Shown here: positions 4,683 through 21,371 of the stretch, piece after piece
Numbering within the stretch: the first letter of the stretch is position 1
How the letters are laid out: every line of letters starts with the position of its first letter
Origin: a virus
Reading direction: 5' to 3' (one strand)
Length of the DNA stretch: 24,752 nucleotides
Virus record (IMG/VR): IMGVR_UViG_3300042010_000245
Span: 1-24,752 of that record
Notes under the pieces: generated by a model
The model's input: the letters and a program-made list of their open reading frames with translations, nothing else
What the model was told of the DNA's origin: nothing
The model's database searches: none
Position numbers and translations under genes: made by a program

Positions 4683-7600
4683 TTACCCCAGATAGCCGAG
4701 ACGAACACGCAGCACGTTGTTGGCGTCGTAGACCGACACGTTCAACGAGTTGATCACGAGCCGCCCCTGACCGGGGACAATGCCGTTGATCTCCAGTGTT
4801 CCGTCCTTGTTGAGAATCCAGCCCTGCTGGCCGGCGATGTAGTTGGTGGAGCTGATGTAGCTGCCGATCTTGGCATTGGTGATGGTGCCGTCTTGGATGA
4901 ACGCTGAGTTCATGAAGACCTGGCCACCCTGCACTGCAAACGGCACTGAGATAGCGCCGCCGGCGATGGTGTTAACGATTGCGAACCGATCCGCAGCCAC
5001 CAAAAACTGGCTTTGGAAAACTCCGCCCACGTTCTCAATACCAAGCCCAACACCCGCAGTAACATACTGGCCATTGGCGGTGACTGACATTTTCACCGAC
5101 CACATCGTGCTTAGGTTGCCGTCCAGGTCAGCAAATGCTTCTGAGGTCTCCTGAATGGCTGATGTGTTTTCGCCCACCGTAGCGGTTAACTGTGTGATCG
5201 CCGTGGCGGTAGCTTCCTTATCGGTGGCCACAACCTGCCGCAGTTCGGTGACATTAGCTTCGTTTTCACCAACCGCAGCAGTCAGCGTGGTTACCTTCTG
5301 CGCGGTGGCAAGGTTTTCCGAGGCCCGCACTTTCTCTTCGGTTGCGATCGCCGCCGTACTGCTCCATCCCTTCAGCGCATCGGCGAGATCGCCCTCCCCG
5401 CTGTCGTCCCGGTATGCAGCACTCAAAGCCTGAAAGGCCGTGGCCTGCGCCGTGATCTCGCCGTCGAGCTCGATGATGTCGGCTGTGTTGAAGGCAACCT
5501 GCTGCGCCAATCCGTTCGCCGTCTCGATCGACTTGCCGATGTCCAGCCAGTAGGCCGGGTTCGGCGGCGGCGTGTTTATAGGCACATCGCCAGTGGCTTG
5601 GTATAGACGCTGCCCCATGCGAACCATGTCTTCATCGACATAGGTCTTCTCCGGGTCGTACAGCAGGATGTCGTCCAGCGCGTCGATCTGTTCCTGGAGG
5701 CCGGGGATCTTGTCGATTTCATCAAGGATGTCCCGGCCCAGTTCCGTGCGGCCAACCTGCCCGGCAATCATTTCCAGAATCGGCGCCGCCTCAGAACTCG
5801 ACTGACCCTGCACGCCCAGCCCCACCGGATACCACGGACCGATGTTGCCGATCCGGTCGACCAGGCGCGCCCAGAAGTAAAAGGTTACGCCCGCGGCGAG
5901 GCCGAGCATCGAGAAGTCGCTTTGCGGATACGAAAGGTCTGTCAGCTTGGTTGCTGCTTCCAGGCTGGTCGTCGGGCCGTACCAGATTTCCGTGCGCTGC
6001 GTGTCTTCGGCGCCAGCCGGGAAACCCCACTTCAGGTAGATGCCGAACAGCAGCGGCGTGGCCGTGAGATACGACACTGCCGGCGGTAGCCCCTGCTTGC
6101 CGCTGAGGTTGGTCAGGATCGAGTTGCGCCACGGCGAAGTGATGTCGAACGCACTCACCGCGCGGACGCGGGCCACGTAGGCACCGGCGTAAATGCCGAC
6201 CACGTCCAGGTTGGTCATACCGGTGCGCTGCAGTTTGATCCAGTTGCCGCTGTCCTTGCGCCACTCCACGTCATAGCCAACCGCGCCATTAACGGCGGGC
6301 CAACTGATGGTCATGGTGGCCACGGCCAATCCCTGGACTACTGAAGACGTCGACGAGAGAGTCACACTTGCCGGCGCCGGTACCACAGTGATCGGGATCA
6401 CGCTGATAGGCCGTTCTTCCAGCCGTGCACCGGTATCGATGAATGCGAACTTGCTCGGCTCGAACTGAAGCGCGGTGAATTCAAAGTCCCCTTCGGTCGT
6501 GCGGCGTCTGCGAAGAATCCGATAAAGGGGGATGGCCAGGTCGTCAGCGTCCAAGGCCCACTGCAACTGTGCCGCCGGCGCATCGCTATACGCAACGGTG
6601 ACAGTCACGGCGCGGCCGGTGACGCTCTGCACGGTACGACCTTCGGCGCGCCCACCTGGCAAGTTGATGATCAGCCGATCGCCGGCTTTGGCCTGGGTGT
6701 CGCGATCAAGCGTAATCACCCGCCCCGCCGCCGAAGAGATCCGCCCGCCAATCTCACGTCCTGCCAACAGTGAGTCGGCAATCGGAATGATGTAACCAGG
6801 AAGAGCAATCGCGCCTTCCATGCCGGTCTTGAATGAAACAGTGCGGTCCTGATTGTTGCTTAAGATCGCCCACTTCCCGCGGCGCTGGGCCTCCGATGCG
6901 CGGGTGCAGCCGATGGCGCTCAGCTCGGTCGGCCGGTCGCCGTAACGGCGCTGAAGATCCAGGTCGGCGAACGGAATAACGTCCGTGTCGTAGTTGTTCG
7001 CCGGGTTGTCGTAGCTGACCAGCGCCCGGGTGTAACGGGTCTTCGCTGAGGCGCTGCCATAGGAGAACTTGCCGTCGATGACGTTCGAGCGGGTGAAGAC
7101 ATAGTCAATGTCCTGCGCTCGAGGCATATCCGCTTGCATCACCAACTGGCCTTCCGCCCAGTACGTCATGCCTCGGTAAATCGCCGAGATATCACGCAGC
7201 AGCGACCAAGCGTCAGCTTTGCCCTGCAGGTTCATGTCGCAGAGAAAGCGCGGTTCAACGTCAGCGAGCCCATTCGGCACAAGTTCGTCGCAGTACTGGG
7301 CGATTCGATACAGCTCCCATTTGTCGACCATGAACGGCTTGATACGCTTGCCCAGGCCGAAACGATCTTCGGTGCACACCCCGTAGGTGATCCACGCAGG
7401 GTTATTAGTCCAAGCCGATTTCATCGAGCCATCCCACGTCCCGGTATAGGTGCGGAGGATCGGGTCGTAGTTGCTCGGCACCATCCAGCGCCGCGCCTTG
7501 CACTTGACGGTCACCGCCGGGATGTTGGTGAACTGCTCGGCATCGAATTCGATATAGAGCAACGCGGTGTTCGGGTAGCGCAGCTTGGCGTCGATCACTT

Positions 7601-8955: not shown

Positions 8956-9378
8956 TCAAAGGGTCGTAGGCAGTATGTCGATCTGCCCATCGCCCCCGGT
9001 GAAAACTCGATATTTCTTGATCGCGCCGTCTTTCACGATTACTTCCCTCTCCACTCGCGCCGCCCCCATGGAGCAGATGCCAGAGCCGGTGTAAGCCGCG
9101 CCGACTGAAACCGAATCAGGAGGTAGATAAAACGATGCCTTCTGGCCCGGCTCGAGCTTGGCGGCCTGTTTGCCATCGATAAAAACTGCCATCGCGCAAA
9201 GGCTCCCGGTCTGCCCAGAGTCACGGATTACTTGCAGTGTCCCATATGCCCCTGTTGGCTTGGCTTGGTATGCCGAAAGCTGACTCGTCGGCGCCTGCTT
9301 GGCCTCACTGGAAGGCATTGGCGAAGTCGCGCACCCCGCCAACAGCGCTACAGCCAACGCTCCTATGATCAATTTCAT
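8956..9378 (-). CDS. Small phage-encoded lipoprotein, 140 aa
   Basis: The N-terminus (MKLIIGALAVALLAGCATS) is a lipoprotein signal peptide with lipobox LAGC and lipidated Cys16. The +2 residue is Ala, not Asp, so outer membrane sorting is expected. The mature part is about 125 residues with YGTLQVIRDS, FIDGKQAAKLEPGQKASFYLPP, reminiscent of DUF2846-like small lipoproteins, and two Cys (SLCAM, GICSM) that may pair in the periplasm. ATG 9378 is preferred because AGGAG lies 8 nt upstream; the in-frame GTG at 9387 overlaps that site. It lies between terminators inside the tail operon, a moron arrangement. A role in superinfection exclusion or surface change is inferred from phage lipoproteins such as T5 Llp, not shown. 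Confidence 0.75.
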   Translation of the reverse strand: MKLIIGALAVALLAGCATSPMPSSEAKQAPTSQLSAYQAKPTGAYGTLQVIRDSGQTGSLCAMAVFIDGKQAAKLEPGQKASFYLPPDSVSVGAAYTGSGICSMGAARVEREVIVKDGAIKKYRVFTGGDGQIDILPTTL

Positions 9379-9432
9379 GCAGGTCACTCCTGTGGGAAAG
9401 GGTGCACGATATCACTGGCGCAGGCGGAAAAG

Positions 9433-9457
9433 AAAAAGCCCGGCGCTGGGCCGGGCT
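9433..9457 (-). terminator. Intrinsic terminator after the P63C gene
   Basis: A perfect 7-bp stem AGCCCGG/CCGGGCT (9437-9443 with 9451-9457, 7-nt loop) is followed on the minus strand by TTTTTCTTTT. It lies 19 bp after the P63C stop codon and isolates that gene from the tail genes downstream. Confidence 0.82.
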
Positions 9458-9475
9458 CGAATGTGTCTTATGCCA

Positions 9476-10450
9476 TCACTCTCTGAGGTCTAGGCTCTGT
9501 TGACCGTAAATCTTTTCAGCGATGTATTTTTCATACTCAGCTCTCGAATCTGAAACCGTGGCGATACCGATAATTTTCCCTATTTGGGTTCGCAAAGCTT
9601 TTACACCAATTTCAGACAGAAACATGTGAACTTTGTCGCCCTTTTCGCCATTCACTTGCTTGCTCGCTTTAGCGAGATCAAAAACTTTTCCATGACTGCG
9701 GGCCAAGGGTTTGTAGATATGGTCGATCGTTAAGTACTTGAACTCCCAAGGGCGCCCCCGCTCCGGTTTGGTCAGCCCGTACAGTCGATACCATTGTTCG
9801 TAGAGCTCAGGGGAAAATTCCTTTTCATATTCACGCGCTTCTTCACGCACATAGAGCTTATATGCCTCGATGACCTCTTCTTTGGTGCGGTCATACCCAG
9901 CGAGAGCGTATACCAAGCCTTGGATACCAGCTTTCGCTGATGCGCCTAGAATAATTCTGGCTTGATTAGCGATTCTCAGATACCTAGGCCCTAGCTCTCC
10001 ACGACTGTCTGCCATGATCAAAGCTTGGCAAATATCAATAAGAAGACCTACTTCATAACCATTTACCTGGCCCTGAAATTCCCCTTTCGCTCCTACGTGA
10101 TCGCCCTTAAAAATCAATGGGTTATCTATCCTATGAAGCAGTTCCGCTCCTAAGGCTTGAGAGACAATCTTACCCTTTGCAAATTTAGGGAGGGCACTGC
10201 CGCCAGATTGCTCATTCAAGAGCATCACTGCCATGCCAATCTGACTGATAACCGCAGTTTTCGAGTCGTCATCAAGTACGTAACAGTCGACGTCAATGCC
10301 AAAGGCTTCGGCAAAGTTCCCCTTATGGGTAACGTTATATCCCCACCGAGCTGCGGCTGCCGCCTTGGCGATAGATGAACGCTTTGAAGGCGTCAAAGAT
10401 TCCGCTCGCGCCTTACCGCCAGCTGCTTTCGATACATCCTTCTCTGCCAT
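9476..10450 (-). CDS. P63C-domain protein, phage accessory gene, 324 aa
   Basis: The N-terminus (about residues 9-36) carries the basic, Ala-rich motif GGKARAESLTPSKRSSIAKA...AARW that precedes P63C domains. The middle has a region with LLNEQSGGSALPKFAKGKIVSQALG, and the C-terminal about 85 residues (PWEFKYLTIDHIYKPLA to YIAEKIYG) match the P63C domain layout, including a Phe/Tyr-x-L-x3-I-Y segment and the VHMFLSEIGVKALRTQIGKI stretch. The family is widespread in phages and bacteria and its function is unknown. The ATG at 10450 has GAGGAGA 8 nt upstream. The gene has its own promoter, operator-like array and terminator, sits between lambda-order K and I, and is clearly more A+T-rich than its neighbours, all pointing to an independently acquired moron. 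DNA binding by the basic N-terminus is my inference. Confidence 0.82.
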   Translation of the reverse strand: MAEKDVSKAAGGKARAESLTPSKRSSIAKAAAAARWGYNVTHKGNFAEAFGIDVDCYVLDDDSKTAVISQIGMAVMLLNEQSGGSALPKFAKGKIVSQALGAELLHRIDNPLIFKGDHVGAKGEFQGQVNGYEVGLLIDICQALIMADSRGELGPRYLRIANQARIILGASAKAGIQGLVYALAGYDRTKEEVIEAYKLYVREEAREYEKEFSPELYEQWYRLYGLTKPERGRPWEFKYLTIDHIYKPLARSHGKVFDLAKASKQVNGEKGDKVHMFLSEIGVKALRTQIGKIIGIATVSDSRAEYEKYIAEKIYGQQSLDLRE

Positions 10451-10526
10451 GCAAGCATTCTCCTCTCAGTTATGCTTGCATTTAGCTTCTATTTTGCAAG
10501 CATGTCAACAAACTAAATGCTTGCAT
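10449..10526. repeat. Four ATGCAAGCAT-type sites in alternating orientation
   Basis: ATGCAAGCAT is at 10449-10458, its reverse complement at 10472-10481, TTGCAAGCAT (9 of 10) at 10494-10503, and the reverse complement again at 10517-10526. Start-to-start spacing is 23, 22 and 23 bp. Each site is itself a near-dyad with arms ATGC and GCAT around a central AA or TT. The array covers the P63C promoter from upstream of the -35 box to the start codon, as expected for a repressor operator. Confidence 0.8.
10480..10508 (-). promoter_or_regulatory. Promoter of the P63C gene
   Basis: The minus strand has a perfect TTGACA (10503-10508), a 17-bp spacer and CTAAAT (10480-10485; 3 of 6 to TATAAT). This predicts a start near 10473 and a leader of about 22 nt with the ribosome binding site GAGGAGA. 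One repeat site fills the spacer next to the -35 box, another abuts the -10 box. The weak -10 box is the main doubt. Confidence 0.6.
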
Positions 10527-20909: not shown

Positions 20910-21371
20910 ATGAAACCAGTTCAGTTCATTCACAACGAAGACGGCGAAGTTGAATATGCAGTAATGCCGATTGCTCATTACCGGGAGCTGATTTCCGATG
21001 ACTTCGATGCATCTGTAGTCCCCCACCACCCTCTGCTCAATCAGGACAAGACCATGGTCAAACTTCCCTACGGCGGAGCGGACACTTGGGTGTGCATTGC
21101 TGATCTGATCTCTTATCTCCGGGCGCAAGACATAACCCACTTGGCGATCAATCAGCGCGCGCAGACGCTGGACAAGTTCCCTGAAGAGCAGCAGATGACG
21201 CTTGATCCAATCATCCGTCGTGAGTTCTTGGTCGATGGATCTCCTTACCGCAACACCATGCAAGCATCTGGCGAAGTCGTTGATGCTCTCGTTTCCACCG
21301 GTCTATTTCGCCGCACTAAGAAACGTTACGATTTCTTCAATCGTGCTGTTAACGCTATCGAATTGACCTAA
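20910..21371 (+). CDS. Plus-strand accessory (moron-like) protein, 153 aa
   Basis: The only gene in the structural region on the plus strand, inserted between the scaffold and minor head genes. The first about 30 residues (MKPVQFIHNEDGEVEYAVMPIAHYRELI) resemble the N-terminal segment of Phd/YefM-type or related antitoxin proteins. The remainder (ADLISYLRAQDITHLAINQRAQTL, RREFLVDGSPYRNTMQASGEVVDALV, FFNRAVNAIELT) is unfamiliar. No toxin partner is adjacent. GGAGA lies about 10 nt before the ATG. The region is noticeably less G+C-rich than the flanks and its stop codon faces the minor head stop codon 3 bp away. It is likely expressed independently of the late operon, but the function is unknown. 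Confidence 0.7.
   Translation: MKPVQFIHNEDGEVEYAVMPIAHYRELISDDFDASVVPHHPLLNQDKTMVKLPYGGADTWVCIADLISYLRAQDITHLAINQRAQTLDKFPEEQQMTLDPIIRREFLVDGSPYRNTMQASGEVVDALVSTGLFRRTKKRYDFFNRAVNAIELT
21258..21267 (+). repeat. Fifth exact ATGCAAGCAT site, inside the accessory gene
   Basis: The 10-mer that forms the P63C operator array occurs once more, exactly, in the coding sequence of the plus-strand accessory gene (codons for Met-Gln-Ala). About 0.05 chance hits of a given 10-mer on either strand are expected in a window this long, but a single site in coding DNA is still weak evidence. Confidence 0.5.

Follow-up and report, generated by a model that had tools for sequence, protein, structure and literature searches.

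The P63C gene and its place among the tail genes

The window, meaning the whole 24,752-nucleotide stretch of viral DNA that was analysed, carries on its minus strand a P63C-domain gene (P0001, phrog_2384; 9476..10450) encoding a protein of 324 aa. The P63C domain (PF10546), which takes its name from p63 of the Myxococcus phage Mx8, covers residues 199-285 (9596..9856, minus strand) and was matched with 34.6 bits against a Pfam cut-off of 26.1. Directly after the stop codon lies an intrinsic-terminator-like hairpin with a T tail (9436..9458, minus strand), indicating that the gene forms its own transcription unit. One flank is occupied by a K-like gene with JAB and NlpC/P60 (10513-11286), and the unit is followed by a lipoprotein gene (phrog_890; 8956-9387) and then by an I-like gene. 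Promoter, gene and terminator together are a moron that separates the tail genes K and I in a lambda-like phage of Pseudomonas type. Other genes were seen in the same gap of the Pseudomonas phages PseuP_222, Medea1 and phiAH14a; those of Medea1 include an HTH regulator, a member of the Arc family and a putative antirepressor of Rha type. In these related phages the K-I gap is a variable insertion slot.

Residues 9-36 of the protein (AAGGKARAESLTPSKRSSIAKAAAAARW; 10343..10426, minus strand) represent an N-terminal module of ~28 residues with the consensus AxGGxARAxxLTxExRxxIAKKAAxARW, which two separate models predict as two helices (residues 6-18 and 21-36), i.e., a putative two-helix hairpin that we propose as the DNA-binding part. 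In Pfam, nothing matches the module of the window protein, and in 38-44 relatives no model was hit repeatedly there; a single sub-threshold CSLinker match was obtained in L093, and NCBIfam holds no model for the module. The whole window protein gave no significant sequence or fold match in the PDB (Foldseek for fold), a tblastn search of phages with the bare 31-residue module, a very short query, returned no match, and a literature search using P63C, the site sequence and module peptides found neither operator nor module described. Residues ~40-195 are BRO-N/antirepressor-like by weak fold matches: for the part after the module, Foldseek matches in BFVD were mainly to Bro-N, repressor-domain and antirepressor proteins, weak and few at E<=0.001. 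Pfam Bro-N had no match in 38 members, and the P63C relatives L139 and L117 matched phrog_2899 (anti-repressor Ant).

A four-site array over the promoter

Upstream of the gene, at 10449-10526, the window contains four ATGCwwGCAT sites with start spacings of 23, 22 and 23 and alternating orientations. Our re-scan reproduced what the earlier note had described, three exact sites and one matching at 9/10 positions: exact copies of ATGCAAGCAT (either strand) are present at 10449-10458, 10472-10481 and 10517-10526, and the 9/10 match at 10494-10503. The core of the sites is TGCAAGCA. Because each site is a near-palindrome, ATGC-WW-GCAT, its orientation lies in the central AA/TT only.

All four are given here in the sense of the gene, on the minus strand. 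Site 1 (ATGCAAGCAT; 10517..10526) is located upstream of the -35 box and overlaps the last codons of tail gene K, whose stop codon is at 10513-10515. Site 2 (ATGCTTGCAA; 10494..10503) abuts the -35 box with a one-base overlap; the exact TTGACA that the earlier note had reported is indeed there, at 10508-10503 on the minus strand. The first AT of site 3 (ATGCAAGCAT; 10472..10481) is the end of the putative -10 hexamer CTAAAT (10480..10485, minus strand), which was assigned from homologues and is separated from the -35 box by a 17-bp spacer, and site 4 (ATGCTTGCAT; 10449..10458) fills the gap between the Shine-Dalgarno sequence AGGAG (10460..10464, minus strand, 9 nt before the ATG) and the start codon, overlapping the ATG. 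Since the -10 box is weak (3/6 to TATAAT), a strict sigma-70 scan of the window reported no promoter at TTGACA-17-CTAAAT.

Over the whole window, five site matches with <=1 mismatch were observed compared to 1.97 expected, four of them within 80 bp, and in dinucleotide shuffles (n=200) the largest 80-bp cluster contained two sites and was reached once, leading us to reject chance clustering of the four sites. The fifth match (21258-21267) was considered as a second operator and rejected; it is single, has no partner and lies among head genes, and was taken as chance.

Among 122 distinct upstream regions, 84 contain exactly four sites in the order + - + -, with 8-bp cores that are ~100% conserved and random bases between them. 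Sites 1 and 2, as well as sites 3 and 4, are 22-24 apart in these arrays, and sites 2 and 3 are 30-32 apart, giving a spacer of 16-18 bp from TTGCAT to TAnnAT. TTGCAT within site 2 is the -35 box, and where sites 2 and 3 are 31 apart, as is common, the spacer measures 17 bp. The bases ahead of site 3 read T (77%), A (86%), n, n, A, and the -10 box ends in the first T of this site. The window belongs to a class with a site 2-3 distance of 22, in which TTGACA at the border of site 2 takes the place of TTGCAT as the -35 box and the spacer is likewise 17 bp. Site 4 fills the GGAG-to-ATG gap, with TGCTTGC running directly into the ATG in 42 of the 84 arrays. The conserved dyads of the 84 four-site arrays overlap the -35, the -10 and the SD/ATG of their own promoter, hence binding to them should block transcription initiation, and repression is the natural reading.

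Distribution of the sites and the module

The earlier note had named a lack of conservation upstream of close homologues as an argument against an operator; essentially every close homologue carries the array, including all those from IMG/VR whose upstream sequence is available. It was also found in relatives from the P22-like phages 611R6 and ST104, Pseudomonas phage Lodos and Paracoccus phage Pkon1, and is kept by homologues down to ~25-30% identity in unrelated neighbourhoods, where the neighbours of array-bearing genes vary between tail genes, cI and Arc/Ant. A protein-blind three-site DNA pattern, run to completion on the genomes of 84,980 species, identified 54 places, 50 of which adjoin a module gene; at L156 a module gene begins but is truncated by the end of the contig, bringing the total to 51 of 54. 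Of the other places, L175 stops at the array, and neither L153 nor L166 adjoins a module gene. All viral three-site places (54/54) have a module gene. The operator is thus almost entirely restricted to a module-bearing gene family, and the taxa with three-site arrays include Proteobacteria, Acidobacteria, Nitrospirae, Planctomycetes, Chloroflexi and Cyanobacteria. A two-site pattern found at least 119 loci in IMG/VR, and 79 of the 119 listed have an ORF with the N-terminal module directly behind the array.

An autoregulated P63C circuit, as the earlier note had suggested, is borne out in so far as the sites are conserved and placed to block promoter and SD, but the sites follow the N-terminal module and not the P63C domain. 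P63C loci were collected by a module-free core alignment, and module presence was scored by an HMM built from array-bearing genes, with the borderline L305 and L313 counted as absent. A site pair with <=2 mismatches was found in 48 of 67 P63C loci with the module and in 0 of 12 without it (Fisher p 2.8e-6, relatedness uncorrected), the background being 3 of 2134 random stretches. When the P63C set was widened to 91 loci, at least two sites were present in 64/76 loci with the module vs. 0/15 without; the 12 of 76 module-bearing genes with fewer than two canonical sites mostly carry diverged modules. A tree-corrected test yielded only six independent contrasts, 3-4 concordant and 0 discordant (p 0.125-0.25), and was underpowered, so relatedness may still account for part of the correlation between module and sites.

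Individual loci show the same pattern. P63C genes L266, L269 and L273 have neither module nor sites, and their close relatives L265, L267 and L268 have both; likewise, the P63C genes of SI8 and Midgardsormr38 lack module and sites, both of which are present in their relative Pkon1. Some RhuM proteins carry module and array (L093, also L324 and L325; L066, also L326), others neither (L327, 61% identical to the module-bearing type, and L328-L330). In four genomes, all from the phylum to which the Nitrospirae genome of L172 belongs, an HMGL-like protein carries array and module. The syntenic copy in G597, 80% identical, has neither, and the gene upstream of it is apparently the same (nucleoside diphosphate kinase, ndk, read by eye); those more distant HMGL-like relatives that allowed scoring have neither array nor module. 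In the four HMGL-like loci (L390:920-2908, L391, L392 and L393) we observed a C-terminal Cache-type domain and the gain of module and array. Finally, L185 of Ramlibacter (5710-6822, minus strand) encodes a protein of 371 aa that bears array and module and has no match in Pfam.

Diverged modules pair with diverged dyads in a qualitative comparison by eye, which sets them apart from the TGCAAGCA-class modules: L314 has TGCACGCA/TGCGTGCA, the Stx-phage type (L297, L004) has TTACGTGCA...TGCACGTAA, and L291 has ATGTAAGTT/AACTTGCAT. Natural specificity classes were seen in L291, L293, L294-L309, L314, L004 and L236, where changed IAKKAA/ARW positions accompany changed dyads.

Many genomes also encode small proteins of 75-110 aa with the module at the C-terminus, of the form GRxGGLKGGKARAxxLTxEKRxEIAKKAAxARW (e.g., L111:2092-2340, minus strand, L221, L223, L370 and L373), and in at least five loci such a gene is convergent to P63C. 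No ATGCAAGCAT array or canonical site was found at these genes, and the small proteins were therefore rejected as users of the same array. In ~20 loci (including L111:130-2978, L215:106-2575, L396, L397, L395, L096 and L156), P63C is divergent from an IS1-like transposase gene (PF03400) that starts beside the array. Inverted ends GGTAGTGGSTCAGTTTGA flank the genes in L111 and L215, so P63C and its array seem to be cargo of an IS1-like transposon there. A second dyad, CTTGACCGCTCAAG/GCTTGAGCGGTCA, recurs ahead of both the gene for the small module protein and that for the IS1-like transposase (L221, L226, L396 and L397) and may be their operator.

Proposed autorepression, alternative explanations and known systems

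Taking the comparisons together, we consider it likely that the array is an autorepressor operator of the gene behind it, and that the encoded protein would bind it through the N-terminal ~28-residue module and thereby shut out RNA polymerase. The two-helix module would serve as a sequence-specific DNA-binding element, each ATGCwwGCAT near-palindrome would probably be occupied by two modules, and four occupied sites would exclude RNA polymerase from the promoter. The pairing of the sites suggests that they may be bound cooperatively. Points against the autorepression reading are the small proteins with the module at the C-terminus, which have no such array, the 12 of 76 module-bearing P63C genes with fewer than two canonical sites, the low power of the tree-corrected test and the weak -10 box in the window. 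For the P63C protein, an antirepressor-like role under tight autogenous control is plausible. With distinctly less confidence, though still slightly in its favour, we propose that a cassette of ~200 bp, comprising the four-site promoter-operator and a ~28-residue DNA-binding hairpin of a new family, may be a natural graftable autorepression module that, once fused in frame, puts unrelated proteins (P63C, RhuM, HMGL-like and unclassified) under negative feedback and exists in several specificity classes.

The main rival explanation is co-inheritance: module and array form one continuous stretch of DNA, and being inherited together could account for part of their co-occurrence. The strongest counter-argument is that both remain conserved from phylum to phylum while the sequence separating and following them diverges, and that loci without the module also lack the array. 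A related possibility is that the module merely hitchhikes with the adjoining promoter and that the BRO-like P63C core binds the sites. BRO-type domains can bind DNA, the core resembles BRO-N/antirepressor proteins by weak fold matches, and the module sits directly behind the array; nevertheless, we regard binding by the core as unlikely, as module-free P63C genes have no sites even when closely related to genes that do (L266, L269 and L273; SI8 and Midgardsormr38), whereas RhuM, HMGL-like and L185 proteins carry module and sites without P63C. That the sites instead serve recombination or transposition of a mobile array-module cassette would fit the ~200 contiguous bp apparently grafted before the HMGL-like gene and the P63C copies that seem to be cargo of IS1-like elements. 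Against this, the sites are in exact register with -35, -10 and SD/ATG, and site 2-3 distances of 31 and 22 both keep the 17-bp promoter spacer through a shifted -35 box, making a function outside transcription highly improbable.

It would be equally improbable for the encoded protein to be only a target, with a CI-type phage repressor or a host regulator binding the array. The P63C gene does adjoin the immunity repressor gene in ST104, SI8, Midgardsormr38 and Kuwabara, but the cI-adjacent genes of SI8 and Midgardsormr38 have no sites, genome-wide the sites occur only at module genes, and in several phyla the same sites are found at chromosomal or transposon-like loci that have no phage repressor in their vicinity. 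A phage repressor is an unlikely binder because the array, in transposons and chromosomes, adjoins this gene family only. Neighbouring sites are complementary, and hairpins between paired inverted sites in the RNA could in principle regulate the mRNA; yet the inferred transcription start is downstream of sites 1 and 2 and falls within site 3, and site 4 is flipped in 8 of 122 regions, where pairing of sites 3 and 4 is impossible, and we give this explanation the least credence of all.

Autorepression by the module-bearing protein is in itself ordinary; out of the ordinary is a minimal, uncharacterised module with a strict site code that would have been transferred, operator included, onto unrelated proteins, module and site code being kept from Proteobacteria to Cyanobacteria and Chloroflexi. 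The proposal offers a first testable activity for P63C and RhuM proteins and names the precise DNA target expected for a widespread 28-residue motif outside the Pfam and NCBIfam models. Furthermore, the specificity classes constitute a natural data set for a protein-DNA code, and the cassette is a possible, very small feedback part for synthetic circuits.

With the known P63C phage proteins the window protein shares the P63C domain, and some of its relatives match anti-repressor PHROG profiles, as phage Ant proteins (phrog_2899) do, but the literature search found no regulatory array described for P63C or Ant proteins. Lambda- and P22-type operators (OR/OL, with CI, Cro, Mnt and Arc) place several near-palindromic sites over a sigma-70 promoter to repress it; the present array would do the same at its putative sigma-70 promoter, with pairwise cooperativity likely here as well. 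In contrast to these, the present array occurs only on the protein's own promoter, is not part of a divergent switch, also covers SD and ATG, and would be read by a 28-residue helical module without a Pfam or NCBIfam match. PutA, through its ribbon-helix-helix domain, and type II antitoxins are proteins fused to an autorepressor DNA-binding domain, and the proposed arrangement is similar in that a small N-terminal DNA-binding part would enable an unrelated protein to repress its own gene. It differs from PutA and type II antitoxins in that operator and putative DNA-binding part are contiguous and stand before at least three unrelated families, and in that the site code is shared from phylum to phylum.
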